This document shows, piece by piece, positions 1 to 14,631 of a stretch of DNA of 15,023 bases. This stretch comes from Thermoplasmatota archaeon. Its GTDB lineage: Archaea; Thermoplasmatota; E2; DHVEG-1. The notes beneath the pieces are model-generated. The model saw only the letters and a list, made by a program, of their open reading frames with translations. It did not search any database and was not told where the DNA came from. The stretch lies in assembly GCA_030609445.1 (NCBI GenBank), contig JAUWCF010000003.1:1-15023 (forward strand), read 5' to 3'. Position numbers and translations under genes: made by a program. Every line of letters starts with the position of its first letter. Position 1 is the first letter of the stretch.

Positions 1-396
1 TTCAACATCTGACATCTTTTCAGCATGAACAAGTAATGTATCATAGTTGAGGTCACCTGCAGATATTTCTTCAATATTGCCATTCTTCAATGTAAAAACG
101 CTATGATTGGGAGTGACGATGGTGTATCCACTTTTTGTCGATATTTTAACCAACTTTTTATTCCATTTGTGTCTCACTGCTTTTTTTACCCTTTTGATTT
201 CTGTTTTACCCTCTTTGTTTACCGAGACTGCCGTCCAATTTTCTTTGATATTGGCTATTTCAAATTCAGTCCCATTGTTTTTTTCTATTTTATGACCATA
301 TTTTTTAATTGCATTATCAACAAATTCTCCAATTTTCATGTTAACTGTGTTACCACTTGGATTTTGTAGAATAATTCGTTGAGAGTGATCTACACT
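1..396 (-). mobile_element. Intein N-terminal region inside PolB (partial)
   Basis: The polymerase frame changes character directly after YQSMKGARNAG. The next residues, SVDHSQRIILQ, fit intein block A, with Ser1 as the nucleophile. MKIGEFVD follows, a phrase typical of the segment after block A in archaeal polymerase inteins. GYTIVTPNHSVFTLKNG matches block B, with the TxxH residues at intein positions 95-98. The 132 visible residues form most of the N-terminal splicing domain. Whether a LAGLIDADG homing endonuclease follows, and whether blocks F and G (His-Asn) close it, cannot be seen. From memory of related archaeal polymerases that read GARNAGT, I infer the first C-extein residue is Thr. 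Splicing competence is likely but unproven. Confidence 0.88.
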
Positions 397-2289
397 TCCT
401 GCGTTTCTTGCTCCTTTCATACTTTGATACATCATTTTTAGTTGTTGTAACTCCTGTTTATCCCCTTTCTCTTTTGCAACTTTTAGTTCTTTTTTTATCT
501 TTGCAATCATGCTCATAATCCCAGTCATCGCGCCGTTTACAACACCCTGTTTAGGATCGATTTTTATTCCAAGCATGTATCCTTTGTCTGCAAATGAATC
601 ATTTGCTGTAACTTCTCGCCAGTGAATGTTTCTTGTTTGTAAAAATTCATTTGGAAGTTTTTTCAGCCATATCCACTCATCTGGTGTTTCATTTTTTTGT
701 GCAAGTTTTATAGTATCTGCTCCAACATTCATTGCTTTTAAAATTGTGGGATACATTGCACCAACATCAGCTACTAGCACATGATACCATGGAATGAAAT
801 GTGATTTTGCTTCTGAATCTGGCTTAATAGTCATTCCACCAGGCATATGATAATTCAACGAATCATCGGTATCCTTGGCATTCTCATTATGAATTACGAA
901 AGGATATTCAACCCATTCTGGCATTTCATCTCCATATTTTAACACCCTGACAAAATCTTTAGAAAGCTGCTCTTGTTTTTTCTTTGCTGATGAAACAATC
1001 TCTGTTTTTGTAGAGCATCCTTTAAAATCTCTCAACAGTGTTTGTGAAATAGATTTAACTCTGCAGATTGGAGGTATAATCTTTTTATGTCTCGCCCCAC
1101 GTATAAGTGCCATATGATCCCACATGTTAACTGCACCTGCGGGAAGCAACATGTCAAATGGCATACATGTTGTAAAGGCAAGAGGCAATGCCTGCTGGAT
1201 AAGATTTAAAGTCACCCCTATTTGCTCTTGCACATCATGTTTGTTATATTGCAATGTTCTCTCATCAATTTTTATCTGAGACGGTGTTAAAATAATACGA
1301 TCTTTTATGATTATTCCTAGAAACGGAGCAAGTGCTTTTAGGCTAAATTCGTTAAGAAATGAATAGAATTTTCTTGCCCCGAGATATGTATCAAAACTAG
1401 ATGGATAAAACTGTACTACTTCTGAACTCGTTCCAAAATGATATGATTTATCAGGCCGACAATATTTATAGATAAAACGTTTCAAATCTTTTCGTTCATC
1501 ATCAGATAGCTGTTCACGCTCACGGTTTAATATCCCCTTTATTCTCTCATATATCTGGAGGTTATCAAAACCAGCAATATTGTGCCCAGAGATAATATCG
1601 TATTGTTCAGCCATTTTACAAAATGCATGAAGATTTTCAATTTCCTCGTTGGTATTTTGTGATATAAGTTGTTTTACCTCAACATCTTCCCAATGAGCTG
1701 GTAGATCTAAAATTTCAAAACTAAACTGTTCATTATCTAGGTTTTTCTCTGATTCAAATGAAATGTCAAAATTAGAATAACCAATGATGTCAATTGGTAT
1801 ATCTTTTTTTCCTTCTGCAAATTGTGTGGTTTCAATATCATAGACAAATACTTTTACTTTCTTTTTTTCACCATGTGTATCAAAAAGCCAAACCTTGTCT
1901 TCAGCTGCAAGATCTGTTAGTGCTCTCTGTTTATAGGGAATGTCATGTTCTGCTGTATAGATGTTATGTTCGAAGAAAAGATAACTGCTTATATCTGGTA
2001 CGACATATGATTCCTTTGTATAGACTTTGAATACTTTTCTTGTTTTATTAAAATCACAAAAACTTCTGTAGGTCTCAATTTCTCCTATCTCTTTTATTTT
2101 CGATAGTTTCTCATGATCTATCTTGTTTTTCTCCCATCGTTCTAAGAGTTTGCTTCTAACGGTTTCAATATTTGTGTTTTCTCCGCTGAATGCAAGAAAA
2201 TATGGGCTATGTACATCTGACACTGGTTTAGGTGGTCTACCTTGAAAATACAGGTAATCTGGTGAGATACCAAGTAACATTTCGTTCAC
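1..2289 (-). CDS. polB: Family B DNA polymerase, N-terminal part, interrupted by an intein (partial at left edge)
   Basis: The minus strand is open without a stop from the start to base 1 (763 codons). The host protein is a replicative-type family B DNA polymerase with 3'-5' exonuclease. Numbering is from the GTG at 2289. Exo I is DIETT at 151-155, Exo II is GHNIAGFDN at 235-243, and Exo III is the Y-x3-D YNKHD at 348-352, so proofreading looks intact. Motif A is DVGAMYP at 508-514 with the metal-binding Asp. Motif B appears as KMMYQSMKG at 618-626, a variant of Kx3NSxYG. After GARNAG the reading frame continues into an intein at residue 632. Motif C (the YxDTD region) and the C-terminal extein lie outside the window. 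The start is GTG 2289, with a purine-rich GGGGG 7 nt upstream; ATG 2280 in the same frame is the alternative. PolB identity is very secure, while the subfamily is not assigned. Confidence 0.93.
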   Translation of the reverse strand, partial: MNEMLLGISPDYLYFQGRPPKPVSDVHSPYFLAFSGENTNIETVRSKLLERWEKNKIDHEKLSKIKEIGEIETYRSFCDFNKTRKVFKVYTKESYVVPDISSYLFFEHNIYTAEHDIPYKQRALTDLAAEDKVWLFDTHGEKKKVKVFVYDIETTQFAEGKKDIPIDIIGYSNFDISFESEKNLDNEQFSFEILDLPAHWEDVEVKQLISQNTNEEIENLHAFCKMAEQYDIISGHNIAGFDNLQIYERIKGILNREREQLSDDERKDLKRFIYKYCRPDKSYHFGTSSEVVQFYPSSFDTYLGARKFYSFLNEFSLKALAPFLGIIIKDRIILTPSQIKIDERTLQYNKHDVQEQIGVTLNLIQQALPLAFTTCMPFDMLLPAGAVNMWDHMALIRGARHKKIIPPICRVKSISQTLLRDFKGCSTKTEIVSSAKKKQEQLSKDFVRVLKYGDEMPEWVEYPFVIHNENAKDTDDSLNYHMPGGMTIKPDSEAKSHFIPWYHVLVADVGAMYPTILKAMNVGADTIKLAQKNETPDEWIWLKKLPNEFLQTRNIHWREVTANDSFADKGYMLGIKIDPKQGVVNGAMTGIMSMIAKIKKELKVAKEKGDKQELQQLKMMYQSMKGARNAGSVDHSQRIILQNPSGNTVNMKIGEFVDNAIKKYGHKIEKNNGTEFEIANIKENWTAVSVNKEGKTEIKRVKKAVRHKWNKKLVKISTKSGYTIVTPNHSVFTLKNGNIEEISAGDLNYDTLLVHAEKMSDVE

Positions 2290-2378: not shown

Positions 2379-3386
2379 ATGAAAACACAAATTGCACATT
2401 CAAAAGATTTCAATAAACATGACAATGCAGATCATCCTGAAAATGCAAAAAGACTTCAAGTTATGATGCGTGAAATACAAAATGCGTCTTTTTATGACAA
2501 ACTTGATTTTTTCGAACCCGATCTTATTAGCGAAGAAGCACTTTACTCAGTACATTCAGACGATATGATTCAGCAGGTCAAAGACATTAGCTCTACAGGA
2601 GATTCATGGATAGATATGGATACCTATGTTTGTAAATCCGACTATGAAACAGCTCGAAAAGCAGCAGGAGGGCTTCTTCAGATCAGCAGGAATGTACTTG
2701 ATGGAAAAGCAGATAATGGATTTGCACTTGTACGACCGCCCGGCCATCATGCTACCCATGAGCGATCCATGGGTTTTTGTCTTTTTAACAATGCTGCACT
2801 TACGGCAAATGAACTTTCTAAAAAAGGAAAACAAGTACTCGTTTTTGATTGTGATGCCCATCATGGAAACGGAACACAATATCTCTTTTATGATAGATAC
2901 GATATTATGTATCAGTCGTTTCATCTCTATCCATATTACCCGGGTACTGGCCCTGTTGAGGATGTTGGAGAAGGAGATGGCGAGGGGTATACAATAAATG
3001 CTCCTTTAAGTCATGGAAATGGTAATGAAGCAGTTTCTCAACTGCTTGATGAGATATTTCTTCCGATTGCTCGACAGTTTAAACCGGATCTTGTTATTGT
3101 TTCTTCAGGGTATGATTCTCATCATTTGGATCCTCTAGGTGGTCTTAAATTAACATCTAATTTTTTTGGGGAGATAATAGCAAAACTTCAGAATATTCAA
3201 CCAAAAATCGTTTGTACACTTGAAGGTGGATATAACCTTGATTGGATTGGTAAATGTCTTGTTTCTCAACTTGGACAACTGATCTCTCATCCAGTAGTAT
3301 TTGATGATACTGCTGATGAGAATATTGCAGTTAAGCCAGTTATTAATAAAATAAGAAATGAGCTAGCAAGTTATTGGAAGATATGA
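2379..3386 (+). CDS. Histone deacetylase / AcuC-AphA family Zn-dependent deacetylase
   Basis: This 335-residue protein has the full set of family signatures, resembling class II histone deacetylases. RPPGHHA carries the two active-site His (H123, H124), followed by MGFCLFNN. FDCDAHHGNGT gives zinc ligands D159 and H161, and SSGYDSHHLDPLGG gives the third zinc ligand D246. LEGGYN gives the transition-state Tyr285. The enzyme should hydrolyse an acetyl-amide bond. Candidate substrates are acetyl-lysine on chromatin proteins, acetyl-polyamines, or small acetyl amides, and sequence alone does not decide between them. The length fits a single-domain archaeal or bacterial member. No ribosome binding site precedes the ATG, which together with the TATA-like box suggests a leaderless or short-leader mRNA. 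It ends one base before the stop of the convergent small gene. Confidence 0.93.
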   Translation: MKTQIAHSKDFNKHDNADHPENAKRLQVMMREIQNASFYDKLDFFEPDLISEEALYSVHSDDMIQQVKDISSTGDSWIDMDTYVCKSDYETARKAAGGLLQISRNVLDGKADNGFALVRPPGHHATHERSMGFCLFNNAALTANELSKKGKQVLVFDCDAHHGNGTQYLFYDRYDIMYQSFHLYPYYPGTGPVEDVGEGDGEGYTINAPLSHGNGNEAVSQLLDEIFLPIARQFKPDLVIVSSGYDSHHLDPLGGLKLTSNFFGEIIAKLQNIQPKIVCTLEGGYNLDWIGKCLVSQLGQLISHPVVFDDTADENIAVKPVINKIRNELASYWKI

Positions 3387-3387
3387 T

Positions 3388-3687
3388 TTAGTCAAAAATC
3401 ATGCCCATGCCTGAAGCAGCAGAGTCTTCTTGTTCTTTGATTTTTTCATCAACTTCTTTTGCCTTTTTTTCGCCAAGTTTTTTGAATTTTAACTCTTTTG
3501 CCAGCTCTTTTGCTCGTTTTAAACCTTTGTCGCTGCCCTCTATCTTGACATAGGAGACATCTCCTTTCATATCAAGAGAGCTTGCATCTCTAGTAAGTAT
3601 GCTTTGTCTGCTGACAAGATCATCTTTTGCTAAGCTGTTGATTTTACCTGCGTTTTCAGATTTCACTTCAAAGATAATATACGTCAC
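3388..3687 (-). CDS. Small conserved-looking protein of unknown function
   Basis: This is a 99-residue protein I do not recognise. The N-terminal half reads as alternating strands and helices (TYIIFEVKS, then VSYVKIEGS followed by a Lys-rich helix GLKRAKELAKELKF), like a small ferredoxin-like or ACT-like fold; this is inference. A charged Lys/Glu linker follows, and the chain ends in GMGMIFD. There is no signal peptide or membrane segment. The start is a GTG, strongly supported by a near-perfect archaeal ribosome binding site AAGGTGAT 5 nt upstream. A TTTATATA box lies before that, so the gene has its own promoter even though it follows coaD closely. Its stop is one base from the stop of the convergent deacetylase gene. 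Confidence 0.82.
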   Translation of the reverse strand: MTYIIFEVKSENAGKINSLAKDDLVSRQSILTRDASSLDMKGDVSYVKIEGSDKGLKRAKELAKELKFKKLGEKKAKEVDEKIKEQEDSAASGMGMIFD

Positions 3688-3692
3688 TTTTA

Positions 3693-3700
3693 ATCACCTT
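3693..3700 (-). promoter_or_regulatory. Ribosome binding site of the small unknown gene
   Basis: AAGGTGAT on the minus strand is strongly complementary to the 3' end of archaeal 16S rRNA. It lies 5 nt before the GTG codon, which decides in favour of this non-ATG start. Confidence 0.75.
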
Positions 3701-3725
3701 ATCTTGCGGATGTAATAAAAGATCA

Positions 3726-3733
3726 TATATAAA
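3726..3733 (-). promoter_or_regulatory. TATA box of the small unknown gene
   Basis: TTTATATA on the minus strand matches the archaeal TATA consensus. It is 39-46 nt before the GTG start and ends two bases before the coaD stop codon. The predicted transcription start near 3700-3705 would give a very short leader holding the AAGGTGAT site. Confidence 0.65.
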
Positions 3734-3734
3734 A

Positions 3735-4196
3735 TTAATCTCTCTTTTGAGTCTTTCCCTCTTCGTCTATCTCTTTATTTCTTATTCTTGATGAACTGAT
3801 TGGAATATTGTCATCAGCTAAAACAAAAGGAATTTGTATGATTTGTAATTGTTTTTCACCTTTTTGTTTACGGATTCTATTTATTTCCTCTGCGGTATGT
3901 TTTGTTTCAGGAGATATAATTATGGCATCAAAATCTTCTTTTAATGACGGTCCGTATTTGTTGTAGATTGGTTTTATTAAGTATCTTCCAGTTAATTTCT
4001 CTTTAGAAAGGTATTTTTCAACAGTCTTTTTCCGTTCTTCAAAAGATTTAACATCTCTTTTTTTATCAATTATTTCTCCTGTTGTGACCCCTATGAATAC
4101 GTGTCCTTGTCTTCCTGCAATTTCAAATGCTTTGCTGATTAGCAGTTTATGTCCTTTGTGGAGATGATCAAATGTACCTCCGATACAAACCTTCAT
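3735..4196 (-). CDS. coaD: Phosphopantetheine adenylyltransferase, archaeal type
   Basis: This enzyme transfers AMP from ATP to 4'-phosphopantetheine to give dephospho-CoA, the penultimate step of coenzyme A synthesis, in the cytoplasm. The 153 residues open with the nucleotidyltransferase signature GGTFDHLHKGH (residues 6-16), holding the T/HxGH-type nucleotide-binding His13 and His16. They close with ISSSRIR (133-139), the usual ISSTxIR element. KSFEERKKTVEKYL and the FDAIIISPET stretch are typical of the archaeal/eukaryotic-like form rather than bacterial CoaD. A TATA-like box lies 23-31 nt before the ATG with no ribosome binding site, so leaderless translation is expected. No other CoA gene is nearby. 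Confidence 0.93.
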   Translation of the reverse strand: MKVCIGGTFDHLHKGHKLLISKAFEIAGRQGHVFIGVTTGEIIDKKRDVKSFEERKKTVEKYLSKEKLTGRYLIKPIYNKYGPSLKEDFDAIIISPETKHTAEEINRIRKQKGEKQLQIIQIPFVLADDNIPISSSRIRNKEIDEEGKTQKRD

Positions 4197-4218
4197 TCAC
4201 GGGGAACATTAGTAATAA

Positions 4219-4227
4219 CTTTAAAAA
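4219..4227 (-). promoter_or_regulatory. TATA-like box of coaD
   Basis: TTTTTAAAG on the minus strand is 23-31 nt before the coaD ATG, the usual spacing for a leaderless archaeal transcript. It separates coaD transcriptionally from the flippase gene, which ends about 100 nt upstream. Confidence 0.5.
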
Positions 4228-4297
4228 TAATGTTATTTCATCAAATTAAAAAATCAGCGGTGATGCACGATAATAACAGAGTTCTCTGTATCATTAC

Positions 4298-5899
4298 TCA
4301 TCTTTTTTTATTCATTTCTGATTTTATATATTTCGCCATTTCCTTAGGATGTATCACGTTCCAGAAAAAATCAAAGTCTTGTTTTTTGAACTCTTTTAAT
4401 ATAAATAAAATTCCAAAATATAATGCTACTCCTATTCCAGAAAATCCAATTAAATGATACCAATGCACCGATGGAACAAATAATTTAGATGAGTAATATA
4501 ATAGTATTCCCATACCTACGCCAGCGATTATGTGACGGGGAATATGACTGTTTAAAATTTTCATCTTGGTCATTTTTTTTGCTGCGAGTTGAAATCCAAA
4601 AAGTCCAATAAGCAATGAGATTAGCGTTGCAATTGCTGCGCCTACTGCGCCATCAATTCCAAATGATGAAAGAACTCCTCCTTTTGGTATAAACAAATAA
4701 TTTAGAGCGATGTTGACGGTACACATTGTTATACCGATTTTTGCTGCTACGCCTGGTTTGTTCATTCCTGCTATGAGGGAGGAATATGGTTTCATAATGC
4801 CTAATATAAAAGCATAGATTGCTATTATTATGAGTACTGGTGCTGCAGATATAAAGGAACTGCTTAACATAAAATAGATTATTGGTTCTGCAAATATTAT
4901 AATTAGTACTATTATGGGGATTGTTACCATTGAGATGTACCGTTCTGCCTGATGTGTTGTTTTAATAAGTCCTTTGAAATTGTTTGTTGCGTGGTATTCT
5001 GAAAGTGTTGGGAATAGGACGATGCCTAGTGCTGTTGATAGGATAATTATGACTTCGGATAGTTGTTGTACTGTCCAGTAGTATCCTACTTCTGCTTGTG
5101 TACAAAAATATCCAATCATTACCTTGTCTATATTTATGGAGATAACTACGATGAGCGAGATGATTGTTATAGGGATGCCAAAGGAAAGATAGCTTTTGGA
5201 GAGTTTCCAACTTGGTTTTTTAATTGGATATTTTCGCAGAAGCCACATTCCTACAAGAAAAGATGCCATACATCCGAAGACGTATGCCATTGCAAGAGAG
5301 CCAGTTGCATGATCTGCAATGAATTGTTGAAGTGGCTGAAGGAATTGTGGCCATGTTGCAATTGGCGAGATGCCTACTGCACTTATTCCTGCAAGAGCTA
5401 CAATTATTGTAAGTGGGATTTTTATGATGTTTTCTGTTGTCCAGGTTATTTGCCGTTTTACTATTTCTTTTGTGCCACTGAATGTCTGCATGGGGATTTC
5501 TTTGAGGTTCAGGAAGATATAGTAAATCAAAAAGATGTAGATAATCGACTTGCTGGCTTCATCTAAAAATCGTTCATGGAATAATAGTTGTAATAGAAAT
5601 ATGGCGACAACTACGCCAAGTATCATTACTCCTGTAAATAATATTTTGATTGTTGCATAGGTGCCGATGCAGGTTCCTAGATCTTGTCCCTCTGAGATTC
5701 GTTTTACATGCGCTTCGAGAAAACCAAATTTTGCTACAAGATGAAATAATGTAAGAAAAGCCATGGCAAATCCTATGTATCCAAGTGCTTCTGGCGCGTG
5801 GCTCCCCCAAAGTTTTGCTAGTATGAATAGCCCGATCCATCCTAGGAAGCGAGCGAAGAATTGTGAGGATACAATTAAGAAGGATTTTCTAGCGATCAT
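4298..5899 (-). CDS. Polysaccharide flippase of the MOP/Wzx superfamily
   Basis: This 533-residue protein is almost entirely hydrophobic segments joined by short charged loops, consistent with about 12-14 membrane helices. The start (ARKSFLIVSSQFFARFLGWIGLFILAKLWG) and the central GIPITIISLIVVISINIDKVMIGYF are typical of oligosaccharide flippases, in which lipid-linked sugars are turned across the membrane. TLSEYHAT also fits the family. Lying just downstream of glmU and glmS, it probably handles a lipid-linked, amino-sugar-containing glycan for cell-surface polysaccharide or N-glycosylation; this link is inferred from context only. A strong TATA box and no ribosome binding site precede the ATG, so it can be transcribed on its own as a leaderless mRNA. 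A multidrug MATE exporter is the main alternative but less likely. Confidence 0.88.
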   Translation of the reverse strand: MIARKSFLIVSSQFFARFLGWIGLFILAKLWGSHAPEALGYIGFAMAFLTLFHLVAKFGFLEAHVKRISEGQDLGTCIGTYATIKILFTGVMILGVVVAIFLLQLLFHERFLDEASKSIIYIFLIYYIFLNLKEIPMQTFSGTKEIVKRQITWTTENIIKIPLTIIVALAGISAVGISPIATWPQFLQPLQQFIADHATGSLAMAYVFGCMASFLVGMWLLRKYPIKKPSWKLSKSYLSFGIPITIISLIVVISINIDKVMIGYFCTQAEVGYYWTVQQLSEVIIILSTALGIVLFPTLSEYHATNNFKGLIKTTHQAERYISMVTIPIIVLIIIFAEPIIYFMLSSSFISAAPVLIIIAIYAFILGIMKPYSSLIAGMNKPGVAAKIGITMCTVNIALNYLFIPKGGVLSSFGIDGAVGAAIATLISLLIGLFGFQLAAKKMTKMKILNSHIPRHIIAGVGMGILLYYSSKLFVPSVHWYHLIGFSGIGVALYFGILFILKEFKKQDFDFFWNVIHPKEMAKYIKSEMNKKR

Positions 5900-5924
5900 G
5901 ATGGGGGATCAAATAAAACAGAGG

Positions 5925-5932
5925 TATATAAA
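5925..5932 (-). promoter_or_regulatory. TATA box of the flippase gene
   Basis: TTTATATA on the minus strand, a consensus archaeal TATA box, is 26-33 nt before the flippase ATG. That places the transcription start at or next to the ATG. It lies in the short gap between the glmU stop and the flippase start, so the flippase does not depend on read-through. Confidence 0.7.
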
Positions 5933-5953
5933 TGAGTCATAAACAAACAAATG

Positions 5954-7159
5954 TTACAGTATTTTACTATTGGGTGTGACCTCACCCTTAACAGATGCTG
6001 CTTGCCCTATAAAACAATTATTTCCAATAGTTGTTCCAACGTTTATTGTCGAATTTATTCCGGTCTGTACATTATCGCCGAGGGCTGCTCCAAATTTTCT
6101 TCTTTTTGTATCGAGTTTTTTTCCGTTGAGAATGACGTTAATATTTTTTTTGTCAAGTCTAAGATTTGCAATTTTTGTTCCCGCTCCAAGATTGCAGTTA
6201 CTCCCAATAACAGAGTCACCGACATAGTTCTGATGAGGAACATTGCTTTTATCCATCACTATTGAGTTTTTTACTTCACATGCATTACCAATGTGGCAGT
6301 TGTTTCCAATTGCCGTATGTGCTCTGATGTAGCAGTTTGGCCCGATTTTACAGTTATTGCCGATAATGACTGGCCCTTCGATGTAGCTTCCGGCACGTAT
6401 TAAGGTGTCTTTTCCGACGATAACATTTCCTTTTATCGTCGTGTTTTCTTCTACAATTCCTTCTATTTTCTTTTCTGCTTTTTTCAAGATTTCTTCATTT
6501 GCATCAAGCAGATGCCAGGGGTACACCACGTCTTTCCATTCTTTTAAAAAAATTCCTTTCATCTCTTCTTTTTTTAGTAGCAGATTTATCGAATCTGTAA
6601 TCTCATATTCGCCTCGTGGTGATTTATCTGTTTTTCTAATATAGCTAAAAATATCCTTATTGAAATGGTAGATACCTGCATTTATGATGTTTGAAAAAGG
6701 CTTATTCATTTTTTCATAGATTTTAACGACTTTTCCTTCTTTTGTTTCAACTATTCCATATTCTTCTGCGTTTTCTACTTCAAAGAGTCCTATGCTTATC
6801 TCTTTTTCTGCAATATTTTTTATATCCTGCATTCCAAAGATAGTATCTCCGCAGAGAACAATACAGTCATCAACAAATCGTTCAACCATTCCTATTGCAT
6901 GTGATGTCCCAAGGGCTCTACCTTGATTTACATATTCTATTGTGACATTCCATTTTTTGCCATTGCCAAAATAGTCTCGTACCATTTCACTTTTATACCC
7001 AACGACAAAGACAAATTCTTTTACATCTGCTTTAATTGCGTTTAATAGATTCCACTCTAGGATCGGTTTGTTGGCAATTTGAAGCATGACTTTTGGGCGG
7101 GTGAATGTGAGAGGATGCATTCGTTTTCCTTCACCTGCTGCAAGAATTACACATTTCAT
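5954..7159 (-). CDS. glmU: Bifunctional GlmU: glucosamine-1-phosphate acetyltransferase / GlcNAc-1-phosphate uridylyltransferase
   Basis: The last two steps of UDP-GlcNAc synthesis are expected. Numbering is from the ATG at 7159 (401 aa). The N-terminal nucleotidyltransferase domain (about 1-225) has LAAGEGKR at 6-13, PKVM at 22-25, LGTSHA at 83-88, the metal-binding GDT at 104-106, and YPWHLLDAN near 213-221. The C-terminal left-handed beta-helix (about 240-401) shows IGNNC hexapeptide repeats. It keeps the acetyltransferase residues H309 in PHQNYVGD, followed by GAGT (325-328) and N332, as in characterised archaeal enzymes such as Sulfurisphaera tokodaii ST0452. An in-frame extension to 7246 exists but overlaps the end of glmS and does not look like family sequence. 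The chosen ATG begins exactly at MKCVILAAGEG, 16 nt after the glmS stop, with GGAG overlapping that gap, indicating coupling to glmS. Confidence 0.92.
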   Translation of the reverse strand: MKCVILAAGEGKRMHPLTFTRPKVMLQIANKPILEWNLLNAIKADVKEFVFVVGYKSEMVRDYFGNGKKWNVTIEYVNQGRALGTSHAIGMVERFVDDCIVLCGDTIFGMQDIKNIAEKEISIGLFEVENAEEYGIVETKEGKVVKIYEKMNKPFSNIINAGIYHFNKDIFSYIRKTDKSPRGEYEITDSINLLLKKEEMKGIFLKEWKDVVYPWHLLDANEEILKKAEKKIEGIVEENTTIKGNVIVGKDTLIRAGSYIEGPVIIGNNCKIGPNCYIRAHTAIGNNCHIGNACEVKNSIVMDKSNVPHQNYVGDSVIGSNCNLGAGTKIANLRLDKKNINVILNGKKLDTKRRKFGAALGDNVQTGINSTINVGTTIGNNCFIGQAASVKGEVTPNSKIL

Positions 7160-7175
7160 TTCTTTCTTTGTCTCC

Positions 7176-8990
7176 TCATTCAACGGTAACAGACTTTGCA
7201 AGATTACGTGGTTTATCGATAGAGCAATTTCTAAGATTTGCGACATGATACGCCAGAAGTTGAAGAATAACTGTGATGGGGACGCAGGATAACAACGTTG
7301 AATTTGATGGGAATCTTAAAACAAAATCTGCATGTTTTTCAATTTCAACATCATGCTCATCAGCAATAGCAATTACTTGAGGACCTCTTGCCTTTATCTC
7401 ACTGATGTTTGCAAGAATTTTATTATATGTTGAGTCATTAGTAGCAATAGCAACTACCGGTGTATCTTTTGTAAGCAGAGCAAATGGGCCATGTTTGAGT
7501 TCACCTGCTGCAAAACCTTCAGCGTGGATATATGATATTTCTTTAAGTTTTAATGCGCCTTCTAATGAGAGAGGATAGTTTATTCCTCGCCCAATGAAAA
7601 AAACCGATTTCGAGTCTTTAATTTGTTTTGCAATTCTTTTTATTTCGTTGCTGTTATCAAGTATTTGTCGAACCTCTCTAGGAAGTTTCTTTAATCGAAG
7701 GATGTAGTCATAGATATCATTCGAGCCTAGGGTATTTTTTATTGATGCAATTTTTAATGCAGTTAAGAGAAGAATAATAATTTGGGAGGTAAATGTTTTT
7801 GTTGCCGCAACTCCAATTTCTGGTCCAGATTGTGTAAGGATATATCCGTCAGTAATTCTTGTTGCAGTACTGCCAATAACATTGGTGATTGCTAGTGTTT
7901 TACAGCCTGAGTGTTTTGCTTCTCGTAAAGCTGCTAGCGTATCTGATGTTTCACCTGATTGTGTGATAGCGATAACAAGTGATGATTTGTTTCTTGTGCT
8001 AAAGAATCGATATTCTGAAGCGGTTTCTACAATGACAGGAATTTTGCATGTTTGTTCTATGATGTATTTTCCAGCTAGACCTGCATAATACGATGTTCCA
8101 CAGGCAACGATATGAATGGAATCAGTTCCGTTTGTTAGAAGTTTTTCAACTTCTTCAGGGAAATTAATGGTTTGTTTTATTTCTGATACTCTGCCTCTTA
8201 AAGCCTGGTTGATTGCGTCGGGTTGATCAAAAATTTCTTTTAACATGAAATGCGGGAAACCAGATTTTTCAGCGTCCTTTACATTCCATGTAATGATATC
8301 TTCTTTCTTTGTAACTTCTTTTTTGTTTTCATCAAAAACATGTATTGATTTTTTTGTTATGACACAAAGCTCTCCTTCATCTAGATAAATTACTCTATTT
8401 GTATATTTGAGTAACGCTGGGATGTCTGAGGCGATGAAATTTTCATTATCTCCCACTCCTAGGATAAGCGGACTTTCTTTTCTGGCACCGACAAGTGTTT
8501 CTGGTTCATCTTCGCACATAACAACAATTGCATAGGCTCCCTGAATTTGTTTTAGGGTAGTAAACACTGCCGCCTCGAGGTTACCTTCATAATGTTCTTC
8601 GAGGAGATGGGCGATAACTTCTGTATCTGTTTGAGATGTGAATGTGTGTCCCTTGTTTTCCAACTCTTCTTTTAATTTTTTGAAGTTTTCTATAATCCCA
8701 TTATGAACGACTATGATTTTTCTATTGGGGCTTATTTGAGGATGCGCATTTTCTTTGTTTACTTTTCCGTGAGTGCCCCATCTTGTGTGTCCTATGCCAA
8801 TATCTCCTTTGATTAAGGGGATTTCTTTTTCTAAATTAGTTATTTCTCCAACTTCTTTAAACACCTGTAGTTTGTCATCTATTATTCCTATGCCTGCTGA
8901 ATCATATCCTCTATAGTCAAGCCTTTTTAAACCATCTATAATCACGTCTTTTGCTTCTCTAAACCCGATATAGCCAATTATTCCGCACAC
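7176..8990 (-). CDS. glmS: Glutamine--fructose-6-phosphate aminotransferase (isomerizing)
   Basis: GlmS converts fructose-6-phosphate and glutamine to glucosamine-6-phosphate and glutamate, the committed step of amino-sugar synthesis. The 604 residues are the usual full length. The N-terminal class II glutaminase domain starts MCGIIGYIG with nucleophile Cys2 and has RGYDS at 27-31 and HTRWGTHG at 68-75. Two SIS sugar-isomerase domains follow: CGTS at 297-300, TQSGETSDT at 343-351, GRGINYP at 467-473, then HAEGFAAGELKHGP at 489-502. The chain ends in the canonical DKPRNLAKSVTVE. The start codon is GTG, one base after the stop of the upstream GlmU paralog. GTGAT within the end of that gene can serve as ribosome binding site, so translation is probably coupled. 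No glmS ribozyme is visible, nor is there room for one. Confidence 0.96.
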   Translation of the reverse strand: MCGIIGYIGFREAKDVIIDGLKRLDYRGYDSAGIGIIDDKLQVFKEVGEITNLEKEIPLIKGDIGIGHTRWGTHGKVNKENAHPQISPNRKIIVVHNGIIENFKKLKEELENKGHTFTSQTDTEVIAHLLEEHYEGNLEAAVFTTLKQIQGAYAIVVMCEDEPETLVGARKESPLILGVGDNENFIASDIPALLKYTNRVIYLDEGELCVITKKSIHVFDENKKEVTKKEDIITWNVKDAEKSGFPHFMLKEIFDQPDAINQALRGRVSEIKQTINFPEEVEKLLTNGTDSIHIVACGTSYYAGLAGKYIIEQTCKIPVIVETASEYRFFSTRNKSSLVIAITQSGETSDTLAALREAKHSGCKTLAITNVIGSTATRITDGYILTQSGPEIGVAATKTFTSQIIILLLTALKIASIKNTLGSNDIYDYILRLKKLPREVRQILDNSNEIKRIAKQIKDSKSVFFIGRGINYPLSLEGALKLKEISYIHAEGFAAGELKHGPFALLTKDTPVVAIATNDSTYNKILANISEIKARGPQVIAIADEHDVEIEKHADFVLRFPSNSTLLSCVPITVILQLLAYHVANLRNCSIDKPRNLAKSVTVE

Positions 8991-8991
8991 G

Positions 8992-10176
8992 TTACATCAC
9001 TTTGCTTTCACTTGGTATGTTTTTGCTTATTTTTTTCAATGGTTCAATTTCGCATCTTCTCCCAATTATTATTCCTGATTCTACAACAACGTTATTTCCT
9101 ATAGTGCAATCTTCACCGATCATGGTACCAATGTTTTTTATTTTTTTAAATTCACCTTCAGTTTCGATGGTCGCTTCTCCTGTTATATTTGAAAAATTAT
9201 TTCCGATTATGTTTCCTTTAGCAATGATTGAATGTGAGATATATGAGCTGGAGTTGATATGGACGTCTTCCATTATGATGCTGTTTCTGATCTCGCAGAA
9301 AGGGCGGATGGAAGAGTTATTCCCAATGGTTGTTGAAGGAAAGATACAGGCATTTGGCCCTATCTCACATCCACTACCGATTATCACAGGTCCAACAATA
9401 TAACAGCCTGAGTAGATGGTGGTATCTTTTCCTATGGAAACCGCACCTTTCATGGTAACTCCTTTTTCAATAACGCCACTTGTAGATGCTGGAAAATGAT
9501 GAATCATAGCTTCGTTCACACTGATGAGATCCCAGGGATACACGATATCCATCCATAAATCTGCAAGTATTGTATTGATGGTTTTGTTTTTTTCAACGGT
9601 TGATTGAATAACAGATGAAAGCGTGTAAATGCCTTGAGATGTTAATTCTTCTATCTCGTCAAATACTTCGTAAGGAAGCTTATATATTCCTGTTGAAATA
9701 AACTTACCTAGTTCTTCTTTTGGTTTTTCAACAAGTTCTTTAAGAATGGTTTTTTCTATAAAAACGACGCCGTATTTTGATGGATGCGGATGTTCTTTTA
9801 TAAGGATGCAGTATTCTGATTTGGCATTAATTAATTTTGAAATGCTGTTTTGATCGATGATGTTATCTCCAGACAGGGCGATAAATGAGTCATTGAGTTT
9901 GTTTTTTGCTTGTAGTAACGCATGGGCAGTACCTAGCTGTTTATCCTGAATTACATAAGTGATTTTGATGCCTTTGTAGTTTTTAAAATACTCCATAATG
10001 ACTTCTTTTTTGTATCCAACAACAACGACGATTTCATCAATCCCGCAGTTTCTTGCTGCATCAAAAACATATTCAAGTACTGGTTTGTTTGCAACAGGTA
10101 GCATTACCTTTGGCATGGTTTCGGTAAATGGTCGTAATCTTTTTCCTTCGCCTGCAGCTAGAATTACCGCTTTCAT
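8992..10176 (-). CDS. GlmU-like sugar-1-phosphate nucleotidylyltransferase with altered acetyltransferase domain
   Basis: A 394-residue paralog of the GlmU two genes downstream, aligning with it almost without gaps up to residue 315. The nucleotidyltransferase domain is complete: LAAGEGKR at 6-13, PKVM at 22-25, LGTAHA at 81-86, SGDN at 102-105 and YPWDL at 213-217. It should therefore activate a sugar-1-phosphate with a nucleotide, likely UTP. The C-terminal beta-helix is present (IGSGCEIGPN, IGNNSSI, IGEDCTIGNN). But where GlmU has PHQNYVGD, this protein has NSSSYISH at 308-315, so H309 is Ser and D315 is His, and the GAGT segment reads IIGNNFSNITGE. The GlcN-1-phosphate acetyltransferase activity is therefore doubtful. 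It overlaps the glmS unit by proximity (1-nt gap) and probably heads that operon. GGCGAT, 5 nt before the ATG, is a plausible ribosome binding site. Confidence 0.9.
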   Translation of the reverse strand: MKAVILAAGEGKRLRPFTETMPKVMLPVANKPVLEYVFDAARNCGIDEIVVVVGYKKEVIMEYFKNYKGIKITYVIQDKQLGTAHALLQAKNKLNDSFIALSGDNIIDQNSISKLINAKSEYCILIKEHPHPSKYGVVFIEKTILKELVEKPKEELGKFISTGIYKLPYEVFDEIEELTSQGIYTLSSVIQSTVEKNKTINTILADLWMDIVYPWDLISVNEAMIHHFPASTSGVIEKGVTMKGAVSIGKDTTIYSGCYIVGPVIIGSGCEIGPNACIFPSTTIGNNSSIRPFCEIRNSIIMEDVHINSSSYISHSIIAKGNIIGNNFSNITGEATIETEGEFKKIKNIGTMIGEDCTIGNNVVVESGIIIGRRCEIEPLKKISKNIPSESKVM

Positions 10177-10209
10177 TATATCGCCTTCTGATGGTAGCTT
10201 GGTTCAGGT

Positions 10210-10221
10210 ATTTTATATTTT
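10210..10221 (-). promoter_or_regulatory. Possible TATA-like box of the glmU-paralog/glmS/glmU operon
   Basis: AAAATATAAAATA on the minus strand lies about 35-45 nt before the ATG of the GlmU paralog in a 127-nt gap. The spacing would give a short leader containing the GGCGAT ribosome binding site. The whole gap is AT-rich, so the exact box is uncertain. Confidence 0.35.
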
Positions 10222-10303
10222 CTCATAAAACGTATTTCAATGGCAAGATTCTTAGTTAATTTAATAAAAATACGCTATTTTTTGTTTTCAATCTGATGGC
10301 TTT

Positions 10304-10708
10304 TTATCCGATTACTTGTACTACTTGTTTGTTTACGATGAGAAATTCCACCAGTTCGCCTGATTTTTTTAATTCTTGTAAAAGATTATAGTTTAAGATG
10401 TGTTCATATTTTGATAAGACTCTGCTTCCGCTTGGTGACCAGCTTGCTATTTCTACTTGATGTGAACCGAAGTCTTTTACACTTCCGAGTATGGTAAATG
10501 ATTCTGTTGTTAGTTTAAATGGACAAGAAGCACATTCGATGACTGTTTTATATGGGACGTAAGGATTTTCAGTATCGGATATTGGCTCTATTTGAACCAT
10601 TGTTAAGATCCCTTTGCATTGCGGACAAATCATGGAGCCACCAGTTTTGTCCCAAATGTCTTTTAAAACGTCCATGTTTTTTTTAAAACTCATCTCAGTA
10701 AGCTCCAT
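10304..10708 (-). CDS. Zinc-ribbon protein of unknown function
   Basis: This 134-residue protein belongs to no family I can name. It has one zinc-ribbon-like module: CPQCKG at 29-34 and CASCPF at 59-64, separated by a 27-residue segment. The rest is mixed strand and helix, with a hydrophobic C-terminal pair of strands (LVEFLIVNKQVVQVIG). There is no signal peptide or membrane helix, so it is probably cytoplasmic. A TATTATAT box is 25-32 nt before the ATG, supporting a leaderless transcript from this exact start; an inner Met at residue 6 is less likely. It is followed by the GlmU paralog after 127 nt with a possible separate promoter, so a link to amino-sugar metabolism is not established. 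RNA or protein binding is a guess from the ribbon only. Confidence 0.82.
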   Translation of the reverse strand: MELTEMSFKKNMDVLKDIWDKTGGSMICPQCKGILTMVQIEPISDTENPYVPYKTVIECASCPFKLTTESFTILGSVKDFGSHQVEIASWSPSGSRVLSKYEHILNYNLLQELKKSGELVEFLIVNKQVVQVIG

Positions 10709-10732
10709 CCGTATAATATACCTGCTTCTCCC

Positions 10733-10740
10733 ATATAATA
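10733..10740 (-). promoter_or_regulatory. TATA box of the zinc-ribbon gene
   Basis: TATTATAT on the minus strand is 25-32 nt before the ATG, which fits a leaderless archaeal transcript. A second AT-rich stretch near 10711-10721 is too close to the start to be the TATA box. Confidence 0.55.
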
Positions 10741-10819
10741 GTTTTGGTCAAAATATCGATGGAGCGGTGTAAATAGTCTTATTAAATTGATAATTGATCT
10801 CGGATGTGAGGCGTCGTTG

Positions 10820-11608
10820 ATGAAAATCATTACATTTCTTTCGGATTTCGGGTTAAAAGGTGGGTATGTCGCTCAGATGAAAGGCGTTGCATCAGGTATT
10901 TCTGATGCAAGGCTTGTTGATATAACCCATGAAATAACGCCGCATAATATTTTTGAGGGGGCTTTTGTTCTTCGGTCGGTTGTCCCATATTTTCCTATGG
11001 GCGGTGTTCATGTAGCTGTTGTTGATCCTAGTGTGGGTACTGAGAGGAAAGGTATTGTTGTTGCTACGAGAAAACATGTTTTTATTGGTCCTGATAACGG
11101 TCTTTTGATGCCTGCCGCTCACTTTTTTGGTGATTTTGTTGTTTATGAGATTACAAATAAAAAATATATGCTTTCTTCTTTATCTAATACGTTTCATGGG
11201 AGGGATGTTTTTGCTCCTGTTGCAGCACATATTACAAATGGTGTGTCTTTTGAGGAGGTTGGTAGTAGAATCAATGATTTTGTTGATTTGGATTTTGGAT
11301 GTGGCAGAAGAAAGGATAACGTTGTTGTTGGGAAGGTTATTCATGTTGATAGATTTGGAAATGTTGTAACTAATATTTCATCAGATATTGTACTTAAGGA
11401 TATAGGTTATAATAAAAAAGTTAAGGTCTTGATTGGTAAAAATGCTATTGAGGTTCTTTTTGTTCGTTCGTATGGTTTTGTGAAAAAGGGAGATGCGCTT
11501 GCAACTATTGGGAGTAGTGATTTTTTTGAAATTGGTGTAAACCAAGGAAATGCTTCTAAAAAGTTGTCTGTTAAAGAGGGAGATGTTGTAAAGGTTATGT
11601 TTGATTAG
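10820..11608 (+). CDS. S-adenosyl-L-methionine hydroxide adenosyltransferase (DUF62)
   Basis: The family is related to bacterial fluorinases and chlorinases but uses water/hydroxide, splitting S-adenosylmethionine to adenosine and methionine. Numbering from the ATG at 10820 gives 262 residues, the usual length. Landmarks are ITFLSDFG at 4-11, GGYVAQMKG at 14-22, [14 protein letters not shown] at 67-80, GPDNGL at 90-95, [12 protein letters not shown] at 125-136, and [10 protein letters not shown] in the C-terminal domain. D69, R76 and H126 match the Asp-Arg-His set that is characteristic of the hydroxide-using enzymes. An in-frame ATG at 10787 would add 11 residues unlike the family, and GTGAGG lies before the inner ATG, so the inner start is preferred. 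The stop overlaps the stop of the convergent DUF357 gene by 4 bases. The physiological role of the family is not well established. Confidence 0.92.
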
Positions 11609-11817
11609 AATTTTATTATTGCGTCGAGGAGTCCATGTGCATAGTTTATGCATCCAAAGGCTGTGAAGAAATCTTTTTTTTCTAGGTAGTATTTTGAGTC
11701 TTCGAAGTATTGAGTTGCTAGTTCTATTATTTTTTGATTATTTTTGGTGGTTTTTGTTTTTTTTACGTTTTCTTCAAACATTGTGATATCTTTTTGTATT
11801 CTTGTTTTTTCGTCCAT
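11605..11817 (-). CDS. DUF357 family small helical protein
   Basis: This 70-residue, fully helical, charged protein ends in a stretch typical of archaeal DUF357: a [19 protein letters not shown] helix followed by LLDAIIKF. The family is a small helical bundle found across archaea with no established function. No membrane segment or signal is present. It is convergent with the DUF62 gene, and the two stops share TTAG. The start is an ATG without a good ribosome binding site. A weak AATTTATGA element lies about 33-39 nt upstream and might be its promoter. Confidence 0.85.
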
Positions 11818-11874
11818 GGCATCTGAGATGTGAGACCGTATTTGTGGTCATAAATTTTTTCCTTGTTTTGTGTT

Positions 11875-11928
11875 TTTTGTCGTTTTTAATCCGACATAAT
11901 GTTTTGTCGTTTTTGAGCCGACAAAATG
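11875..11928 (+). repeat. Two tandem 27-bp inverted-repeat units, probable operators
   Basis: Unit 1 (11875-11901) and unit 2 (11902-11928) abut directly and agree at 24 of 27 positions. Each is an inverted repeat with arms TTTTGTCG and CGACAAAA around a 9-nt T-rich spacer. Unit 2 arms are perfect over 8 bp, and unit 1 has one mismatch (CGACATAA). They lie a few bases upstream of a TATA-like box and 68 nt before the start of a winged-helix regulator gene, the expected place for autoregulatory operators. A hairpin in RNA is possible but neither copy is followed by a T-tract. Confidence 0.75.
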
Positions 11929-11934
11929 AAAAAG

Positions 11935-11969
11935 TATTTAAACTTATGAAATAAAGTAATTATATAAAT
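11935..11969 (+). promoter_or_regulatory. Promoter region of the regulator-transporter operon (two candidate TATA boxes)
   Basis: TATTTAAA at 11935-11942 and TTATATAAAT at 11960-11969 are both good archaeal TATA candidates. The first sits 7 nt after the operator pair and would give a leader of about 30 nt carrying the GGTG ribosome binding site at 11985-11988. The second, 27-36 nt before the ATG, would give an almost leaderless mRNA. The first arrangement uses the ribosome binding site and places the operators over the upstream (BRE) element, so bound regulator could block initiation. Confidence 0.6.
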
Positions 11970-11995
11970 CTAATAATATAATTTGGTGTAAAATA

Positions 11996-12394
11996 ATGAC
12001 AGGGCACGTGCTTCGTATAGATAAAAATTCCGAAAGAGCAGTGCACGAGCTATTGAAATCAAAAGCTGAATCAAGGATTTATATCTATCTCCTCAGAAAA
12101 AATGGGGCAAGAAGCGAAGAGATCATCAAAGGCACCAAACTTCATCCAAGTACAGTACGAGAACTTCTCTCCAAAATGCATGGGCAACAGTTAATTTATC
12201 GTGAAAAACTAAAAAATGACAGCATAGGGAAAAACCCCTATTTCTATCGAGCAGTTTCTCCTGTTAAACTTCTACAAAAAAAGGCAAAAGAAATCGAAGA
12301 TAGGCTAAATAGAATTGCAAATCTAACCGGTAAAAAAGATAAAGACACCAAATACGTGAGAATAAAAATCTATAAACGAGGCGGAAACGCATGA
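11996..12394 (+). CDS. Winged helix-turn-helix transcriptional regulator (ArsR/TrmB-like)
   Basis: This 132-residue DNA-binding protein has a helix-turn-helix at about 25-62: RIYIYLLRKNG, then SEEIIKGTKL, then the recognition helix HPSTVRELLSKM. A beta wing follows (LIYREK... NPYFYRAVSP, about 66-89), then a charged C-terminal helix (about 90-110) that could dimerise, and a basic tail. I cannot place it in one named family; ArsR-like or TrmB-like are the nearest. GGTG lies 7 nt before the ATG. Its stop overlaps the transporter start (ATGA), so the two are translationally coupled. The paired inverted repeats just upstream suggest it binds its own promoter and controls the transporter. Repression is more likely than activation because the sites adjoin the TATA box, but this is inferred. 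Confidence 0.87.
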   Translation: MTGHVLRIDKNSERAVHELLKSKAESRIYIYLLRKNGARSEEIIKGTKLHPSTVRELLSKMHGQQLIYREKLKNDSIGKNPYFYRAVSPVKLLQKKAKEIEDRLNRIANLTGKKDKDTKYVRIKIYKRGGNA

Positions 12395-14631
12395 ATACAA
12401 AAACAATTGCAAAAATCTTAGTAAAACAACCAAAAGCGGTTGTCATAGTGTTTACTATATTTACTGTAATTGTTGCCCTTCAGATCCAGAATGTGTATAT
12501 GGTATCAGATATCACCGGTTATCTCCCTGAAGATAATCCTTCAATACAGCTCTGGGAAGAAATCAATGAGGAATTTCAGATAGGATCAACTATCGTCATT
12601 TATGTCGAAGCAGATGACATACGGGATCCCTATGTTTTACGGGAGATGGATCGCGTCAGCACTAAAATTAACGCTTATGATCTTGATAAAGGTGAAAAAG
12701 ATGGTATCGTTTCTGTAACAAGTATCGCTTCACTTATAAAAGATGAAAACGCAAAACCAAATATCCCTGGAGGCTTGGGGGGAACCGGAAAATTTGAAAT
12801 CCCTGACGATAGAAACCTTATTTCTCGTTATCTTGCAAGAGTTCTCATACAAGAAATGAAAGGAATTCTTTTTATAAACACCTATAAAATAGCAGTAATT
12901 GTCATACAGCTATCTGATGAGGCTGATTATCATGTCGTGCTTGATAATGTTGAAGCAGCTATTGACCGAGAGGCACGATATTCAGATATGATGGTAACCG
13001 GTCTTATTGCAATGCAGCAGGCAATTCAAAAAGAAAGCATGCAAAGCATGATGATAATTTTCCCTGTTGCAATACTATTTATTTCCATTGTAATCTTTTT
13101 CTTCAATAGAACAATAAAAGGAATCATCATCATCTTTCTACCATTGGCATATGCACTTGCCTTAACATTTGGAGTTTTTGGAATGGTGATGCCGGAGCTT
13201 ACTCTTTTGTCAATTGCAGTTGTAGCTCTTCTTATTGGACTAGGTGTTGATTATTCCATTCATATACTTAATAGGTTTTCTGAAGAGGTTGATTTAGAGG
13301 ATAAAATTGAGGTAGTTGAAAAAACACTCCGGCTTACTGGTAAAGCGGTGTTACTCTCTACAATTACGACAATGATTGGTTTTGGGTCACTCATGGTGTC
13401 AAGTATGCCTCCAATGGTAACCTTTGGTCTTGGATGTATTATTGGTATTTTGTTCTGTTTTGTTTCTGCAACGATTCTTGTGCCTTGCCTTGCGATCATA
13501 TTAAAGTTTGAAAAGAAAGGTCGTGCGCATAACTGGTGGAGAATTGTTGCAAATATTGCTGTTGATAACAAAAAACGATTTGCAGTACTTGCATGTTTTT
13601 TTACTGTTATGTCTCTTGTTGTACTACCAAGCATAACAACTGATGTTAACTATTTTGACATGATTCCAGAAGGCGTTCCAGAAGTAGAAAAATATTTTGA
13701 ATATGCAGATAATTTTGGAGGCGGAACCAGCGTCAACATGATTCTCATAGAGACAGAGCCTCAGGGTCTTACCTATCCTGAGACTATAGACGCTATCTAT
13801 ACTATGCAGGAGGAAATGAGAAAGACAGGTGCAACTGTTGCTTCAATTGCTGACGTATTAAAAGAAGCCTATGATATATTGGAAAGAAACACGATCCTAG
13901 AAAAACTTGCTGAATTTGCAAGTGCAGAAGAAATAATATTTGACCGGGTAGCAAAAGAAGGCCTTGTTGATGATGATTATTCAAAGACTATTGTTTTTGT
14001 ATATTTCCCTATTGGAAAGAGCACTCGCGAGCTGGAGGTGTTGATAAATAAAATCAATGACATTGCTTCAAACACAGTATTACCCTATAACGGTCGTACT
14101 TCTAAATTAACCGGTCAAGATGCAATGAATGTGGAGATCAATAATCAGCTTTTAGATGAACAATTACGTTCTATGATTATTGCACTATTAGTTGTCCTTG
14201 CGGCACTTATCGTTATATTTAACTCCTCATTGTGGGGATTTTTAACGATGATTCCTGTCATGTTTGTTCTCGTTTGGGAACCAGGATTTCTTGTAATGCT
14301 TGATATCTCGCTTTCTGTTGTAACAATTTCTATTGCTTCTATTATGATAGGCATAGGTATTGATTATGGCATACATGTCACAGAAAGGGTTAGAGAAGAG
14401 CTGGCTAAAGGAAAAGCGAGAAAGAAGGCGACAAAGGACGCTATTGAAAAAACAGGTCTTTCACTCATCGAAGCAGCTTGTACTACAATTGCGGGTCTTG
14501 CTTCTGTATATTTTGTTGATATTCCTGCAATACAACATTTCGCAACAATTGTCATTATTATGACTATTTCTTCACTTGTTGCTGCAGTGTTTATCCTACC
14601 TATCTTTTATAGTTTAAAGTTCGTTAAGTAG
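12391..14631 (+). CDS. RND superfamily transporter, MMPL/HAE3-like
   Basis: A 746-residue membrane protein made of two homologous halves. Each has one helix, a large extracytoplasmic domain, then a five-helix bundle. Helix 1 lies at about 17-33 and the first outer domain at about 34-215, with helices at about 218-370. The second half starts with a helix near 397-413, has its outer domain to about 590, and helices to the C terminus. The fourth helix of each half carries the RND proton-relay-type Asp: GLGVDYSIH (D287) and GIGIDYGIH (D658). This architecture is that of archaeal/bacterial HAE3-type exporters and MmpL proteins, energised by proton or sodium gradients. Lipids, hydrophobic compounds or drugs are possible cargo, and the sequence does not decide. 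A four-base overlap with the regulator and a GAGGCGG ribosome binding site 7 nt before the ATG support coupled expression. No partner subunits are nearby. Confidence 0.92.
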   Translation: MNTKTIAKILVKQPKAVVIVFTIFTVIVALQIQNVYMVSDITGYLPEDNPSIQLWEEINEEFQIGSTIVIYVEADDIRDPYVLREMDRVSTKINAYDLDKGEKDGIVSVTSIASLIKDENAKPNIPGGLGGTGKFEIPDDRNLISRYLARVLIQEMKGILFINTYKIAVIVIQLSDEADYHVVLDNVEAAIDREARYSDMMVTGLIAMQQAIQKESMQSMMIIFPVAILFISIVIFFFNRTIKGIIIIFLPLAYALALTFGVFGMVMPELTLLSIAVVALLIGLGVDYSIHILNRFSEEVDLEDKIEVVEKTLRLTGKAVLLSTITTMIGFGSLMVSSMPPMVTFGLGCIIGILFCFVSATILVPCLAIILKFEKKGRAHNWWRIVANIAVDNKKRFAVLACFFTVMSLVVLPSITTDVNYFDMIPEGVPEVEKYFEYADNFGGGTSVNMILIETEPQGLTYPETIDAIYTMQEEMRKTGATVASIADVLKEAYDILERNTILEKLAEFASAEEIIFDRVAKEGLVDDDYSKTIVFVYFPIGKSTRELEVLINKINDIASNTVLPYNGRTSKLTGQDAMNVEINNQLLDEQLRSMIIALLVVLAALIVIFNSSLWGFLTMIPVMFVLVWEPGFLVMLDISLSVVTISIASIMIGIGIDYGIHVTERVREELAKGKARKKATKDAIEKTGLSLIEAACTTIAGLASVYFVDIPAIQHFATIVIIMTISSLVAAVFILPIFYSLKFVK

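Follow-up and report, generated by a model that had tools for sequence, protein, structure and literature searches.

The window analysed here, 15,023 bases that make up the whole of contig C77 of Thermoplasmatota archaeon genome G000, begins inside a family B DNA polymerase (PolB) gene read from the reverse strand, and the coding sequence is interrupted in the region of motif B. Two questions are raised by this locus: whether the insert is an intein, and whether it occupies one of the sites already catalogued for PolB inteins.

An intein half in motif B of the polymerase

The open reading frame (ORF) at window positions 1-2289 (reverse strand) runs through ...LKMMYQSMKGARNAG into SVDHSQRIILQ (intein block A), continues to GYTIVTPNHSVF (block B) and is still open after KMSDVE at the left edge, which is also the end of the contig. 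The insert matched Pfam Intein_splicing with 38.9 bits (cut-off 35.8) and NCBIfam intein_Nterm with 35.6 bits (cut-off 24.5). As in class 1 inteins, Ser1 stands at the N-terminus of block A as nucleophile (SVDHSQ) and block B carries TxxH, here TPNH. Homologues P0002, P0003, P0004 and P0008 read GARNAGTHGI and are free of the insert precisely at this junction.

The host protein shares 98% identity with residues 4-561 of P0004 and belongs to the family B polymerases by its fold and motifs A, B and C; the structure model of homologue P0002 shows the PolB fold. A HINT fold was found in the model of relative L095:7672-9003 (alignment of 7 sequences; pLDDT, the predicted local distance difference test, 81.1), a model of that relative and not of the window copy. 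The insert is not set apart by composition, its guanine-plus-cytosine fraction being 0.328 (positions 1-396) vs 0.318-0.374 in windows across the rest of the gene.

We read window positions 1-396 (reverse strand) as the N-terminal half of a class 1 intein in a divergent archaeal family B polymerase, placed between Gly and Thr of KGARNAG/THG in motif B (the slash marks an insertion point), with a probability of about 0.92. The first-pass annotation, made from the sequence alone, had proposed a PolB intein that follows GARNAG directly, in the region of motif B, and the profile matches, the insert-free homologues and the half found on contig C110 (see below) agree with it. It had named inteinless homologues containing the same 132 residues as evidence against an intein; those found lack exactly that stretch. 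Its feature at 1..420 does hold the intein, but the insert begins at window position 396, and 397-417 (KGARNAG) is still polymerase.

The C-terminal half and a second intein on contig C110

Contig C110 of the same genome (5614 bases) begins within an intein: KMADFVKKSLGDCFAIPPKKIEFVDPSSDYVYDISVEDNENFLDSNGGILLHN is followed directly by THGILSAPGV... Blocks F and G are present and end in LLHN, followed by Thr (LLHN/THG), so that the C-terminal His-Asn and the +1 Cys, Ser or Thr of a class 1 intein can be read on C110, provided that this contig belongs to the same gene. Blocks F and G with a terminal His-Asn and a THG-like extein had been put forward as a check of the intein, and Thr as the likely +1 residue; both are found here.

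No overlap was found between the ends of C77 and C110 (best end overlap 14/18 bases). Identity to P0004 is 98% for the C77 part, 95% for the last C110 part and 78% for a short middle piece of 55 residues, whose edges are not extein. From the fit of the two halves and their similarity to the common homologue P0004, we infer that C77 and C110 would form one gene.

The polymerase on C110 contains a second intein, which begins with SVDSDTDIII after ...IRIVYGD and finishes ...AHN/TDGIYLGC. This is the known pol-c position, YGD/TDS, position III (PMC549080). A break in the reading frame of the second intein, at roughly L013 4307 to 4473 and near a run of A, could be due to decay or to a sequencing error. 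Inteins at pol-c also occur in P0122, P0123, P0126, P0128, P0132 and P0154. Among the genomes of the class, a pol-c insert lies within one contig in G000, G016 and G026, and is divided between two contigs in G014 and G079.

Table 1. Features of the interrupted polymerase gene (window coordinates unless a locus is named)
Feature	Position	Strand	Evidence
Family B DNA polymerase, N-terminal part (exonuclease domain, palm containing VADVGAMYPT as motif A, first part of motif B)	397..2289	-	ORF; DNA_pol_B_exo1; 98% identity to P0004; PolB fold of P0002 model
KGARNAG, N-terminal side of motif B (Kx3NS with one additional residue); the seven extein residues that directly precede the insert	397..417	-	Sequence, alignments
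KMMYQSM, motif B according to the first-pass annotation; upstream of motif B by alignment	418..438	-	
First 132 intein residues, up to the contig edge	1..396	-	
Intein block A, SVDHSQRIILQ, Ser1 nucleophile	364..396	-	
Intein block B, GYTIVTPNHSVF (TxxH)	94..129	-	
Second intein, YGD/TDG site, polymerase on C110	L013 3973-5305		LAGLIDADG-like part 21.0 bits, just under cut-off

Position of the insertion and relation to other inteins

Three alignments (MAFFT L-INS-i, MAFFT G-INS-i and hhalign) agree in placing KGARN on KxxxN and T629 on the x of NSxYG. They disagree on the extra residue, A627 or G628, which leaves about one residue of uncertainty in the insertion register. On this mapping motif B is KGARNAG/THG and the insertion falls at NS/xYG, one aligned residue past the classical N/SxYG; the helix predicted for motif B (608-633) extends two residues beyond G631. 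An hmmsearch alignment with Pol alpha puts motif B elsewhere and counts against the NS/xYG mapping; its accuracy in this region is low and it was set aside. KMMYQSMKG, equated with Kx3NSxYG in the first-pass annotation, lies upstream of motif B in the three alignments and was rejected as motif B; the insertion, thought to follow the N-S equivalent by about nine residues, follows it by one aligned residue. The view that the site differs from the N/S, motif A and YxDTD sites is upheld. Motif B of this polymerase group carries one extra residue and has His for Tyr (NAGTHG vs NSxYG); the H and the G are invariant in 59 aligned homologues.

The NS/xYG insertion looks like an allele separate from the classical N/S one, because the copies of at least 60% identity, held by five of the 389 phylum genomes sampled, all lie at NS/xYG and the sole N/S intein compared is more distant than the V-ATPase and aCPSF1 inteins. 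Scored with a profile of the 33 full-length copies (see below), an aCPSF1 intein reached 232.5 bits, two V-ATPase inteins 216.2 and 219.7, a pol-c intein 209.2, and the N/S-site intein of P0185 101.6. Archaeal V-ATPase, aCPSF1 and Top6B inteins, which reside in other host proteins, were among the highest scores outside the window allele. The pol-c intein shares the gene but not the site, and the motif-B intein of L095, a relative, shares 27% identity with the pol-c intein of L080 and 26% with that of L103.

The insert might instead be the classical motif-B allele of Thermococcus-type PolB, seen through a local difference in the host sequence. We consider this unlikely: the three alignments put Thr+1 on the x of NSxYG and not between N and S, the +1 residue is Ser in the classical allele and Thr here, and sequence similarity is distant, the score of P0185 lying below those of the aCPSF1, V-ATPase and pol-c inteins in a comparison with one N/S sequence and one structure. 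The classical motif-B intein is represented by P0185 in this set and by PI-PkoII/2cw7.

Somewhat less likely still is that the site is the haloarchaeal polB-d or another catalogued PolB site. Alleles polB-a to polB-d have been listed, polB-d being the fourth and occurring also in Archaeoglobus profundus (PMC4071816); like the window allele it lies beyond a, b and c. Against this identity, copies of at least 60% identity were found in 5/389 genomes of the phylum, G000 included and all at the same site of the same gene, with no match in phages or plasmids; where more than 30% of the query was covered, hits outside the polymerase were at most 38% identical (best 120 of 128 in one search), all of these results coming from searches without haloarchaeal genomes. 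NS/xYG is no more than a candidate for a new PolB intein site. P0232, a Promethearchaeia PolB fragment, has an intein ending HN/SYGVFG in the same motif-B register, plus a second intein at pol-c.

A naturally split gene, its two products united by trans-splicing in the manner of Nanoarchaeum, would explain why both contigs stop within the intein. It is very improbable: both ends are contig ends in an assembly of 216 contigs that is 66% complete, the ORFs run off both edges, and 47/47 complete relatives are single proteins. That the insert is an extra polymerase domain and no intein is already refuted, because empty homologues exist, up to 98% identical, and it disagrees with the intein motifs at both ends, the matches over curated cut-offs and the intein fold of the relative's model.

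Relatives with and without the intein

A homology search with the polymerase yielded both insert-free (up to 98% identical) and insert-bearing polymerases among the best 120 of 500 matches. Not counting P0006 and P0156, which are incomplete, or the partial window copy, 47 complete inteins were extracted at the same junction, 33 of 442-445 amino acids and 14 of 188-237. Every one of the 47 starts with S, ends in LHN followed by THG, and contains TxxH. LAGLIDADG_3 was found in both motif-B copies that were scanned with Pfam on their own; the 14 short inteins are too short for an endonuclease. P0006, a partial protein labelled Petrotogales bacterium, has the same archaeal polymerase and intein and is likely from a misbinned contig.

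The extein set comprised 151 sequences, 42 carriers and 109 empty (5 carriers were dropped as too short), and is a biased sample, having been assembled partly by searching with carriers. The +1 residue was T in 42/42 carriers; among empty sites it was T in 96, S in 9 and A in 4. The alleles with Ala (AHG) are those of P0043, P0061, P0065 and P0114. Such a site should not support splicing, and is possibly a resistant allele or plain drift.

Endonuclease state and history of the allele

The window copy is probably free of endonuclease, with a few residues missing between the contigs, because the C110 edge (KMADFVKKSLGDC) has no NTR motif before DC and the 185 residues seen (132 + 53) are close to 188, the commonest short length (6/14). 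In the corresponding stretch the NTR motif was present in 33/33 full copies and 3/14 short ones.

On the extein tree, occupancy of the site requires at least 22 changes (shuffled mean about 37; none of 500 shuffles was as low). On the intein tree, where support for many forks is weak, endonuclease state must have changed 8 times or more; 40/500 shuffles were as low, so the short forms are scattered and hardly clustered. Intein and extein identities are correlated (rho 0.66; 0/999 permutations as high), and inteins are more alike than exteins in 139/861 carrier pairs. This pattern fits long residence of the intein, with several rounds of loss or regain and an endonuclease that decayed more than once; transfer is not proven. 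P0131 and P0139, whose inteins are more alike to others than their exteins are, were dropped as evidence of transfer; both have very long extein branches.

Several observations weigh against a short, homing-derived intein shared by the two contigs. The window half is closest, among the 47, to P0143 (76% identity), a full copy. The absence of NTR is weakened as a sign of the short state, since some short copies also have the motif. Because C77 and C110 do not overlap, the central part of the insert is missing from the assembly, and the two contigs could derive from different strains. Much of the pattern may reflect vertical descent with losses and not homing, because the two identities correlate and inteins exceed exteins in just the minority of pairs given above.

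Distribution over genomes

The polymerase was found in 75/80 genomes of the class. Both sides of the site are seen in 71, and five carry the intein (G000, G015, G023, G042 and G046), all of them members of the family to which the window genome belongs. Among 60 named loci, which overlap the class set, 56 show the site: 4 are occupied (L093, L094, L095 and L099) and 52 empty. In the 389 phylum genomes, 13 matched the intein at an E value of 1e-15 or better. Locus L105 1-979 (contig C18 of G002) starts at the insertion site, and another G002 contig has an empty site; this is perhaps a mixed population.

A viral origin was considered and rejected. No relative was found among the phages and plasmids searched, nor in viral contigs scanned with a single intein. 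Scanning the viral contigs with the mixed alignment A3 gave seven weak loci: the junction pattern located sites in L108, L110, L111 and L113, none followed by THG, and no site in L109, L112 and L114, which stay unread.

We take the genomes of the window family to be DHVEG-1, and the polymerase is probably of group B8, the host range DHVEG-1 being what fits. Group B8 of the archaeal PolB has been described in DHVEG-1 (PMC7544198), in a paper whose main text has no word beginning with intein. A literature search by titles and the starts of abstracts, its coverage excluding most subscription papers, found nothing about inteins in this polymerase. Elsewhere, inteins have been described as occupying conserved sites (PMC2814812), those of PolB3 as mostly shared with some lineage-specific (PMC4104785), and homing by a haloarchaeal polB intein has been reported (PMC3024317).

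Proposed mechanism and significance

Judged from sequence, the precursor would remove the insert by the standard route: acyl shift at Ser1, transesterification to Thr+1 and cyclisation of the terminal Asn. Excision would rejoin motif B, and the unspliced enzyme should be inactive. In related Thermoplasmata the allele may persist in this gene as a homing element. The conserved codons of KGARNAGTHGI are the presumed target of the LAGLIDADG endonuclease that full-length copies carry, and this endonuclease would have been lost repeatedly.

A highly speculative extension, which we regard as improbable, is that NS/xYG is a separate, uncatalogued Thermoplasmata allele whose endonuclease-free copies, of several origins and persisting beside empty alleles, are kept as a switch. 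Together with the YGD/TDG intein they would set apart the 49 residues that lie between motifs B and C, and polymerase activity would need two splicing events.

Full, short and empty states coexist in related archaea; the trees show many changes of state, and one empty homologue shares 98% identity with the polymerase of the window. With this variety, uncultured archaea provide a natural setting in which to test the homing cycle (invasion, decay of the endonuclease, loss). A site next to the classical one is relevant to the question of single or multiple invasions of motif B, and the 14 short inteins are candidate splicing tools.

Other features of the window and genome

Pfam matches at window positions 2379-14631 identify a histone-deacetylase domain protein, a cytidylyltransferase-like protein, a polysaccharide biosynthesis protein, a SAM hydroxide adenosyltransferase, an MMPL protein and two nucleotidyltransferases with hexapeptide repeats flanking a SIS/glutamine amidotransferase protein. 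Further intein-like inserts in G000 lie in gyrase B and the PolD large subunit catalytic domain (both over cut-off) and in a PEP-utilising enzyme (28.3 bits, under cut-off, with LAGLIDADG_3), on contigs C160 (L014), C21 (L015) and C42 (L016).
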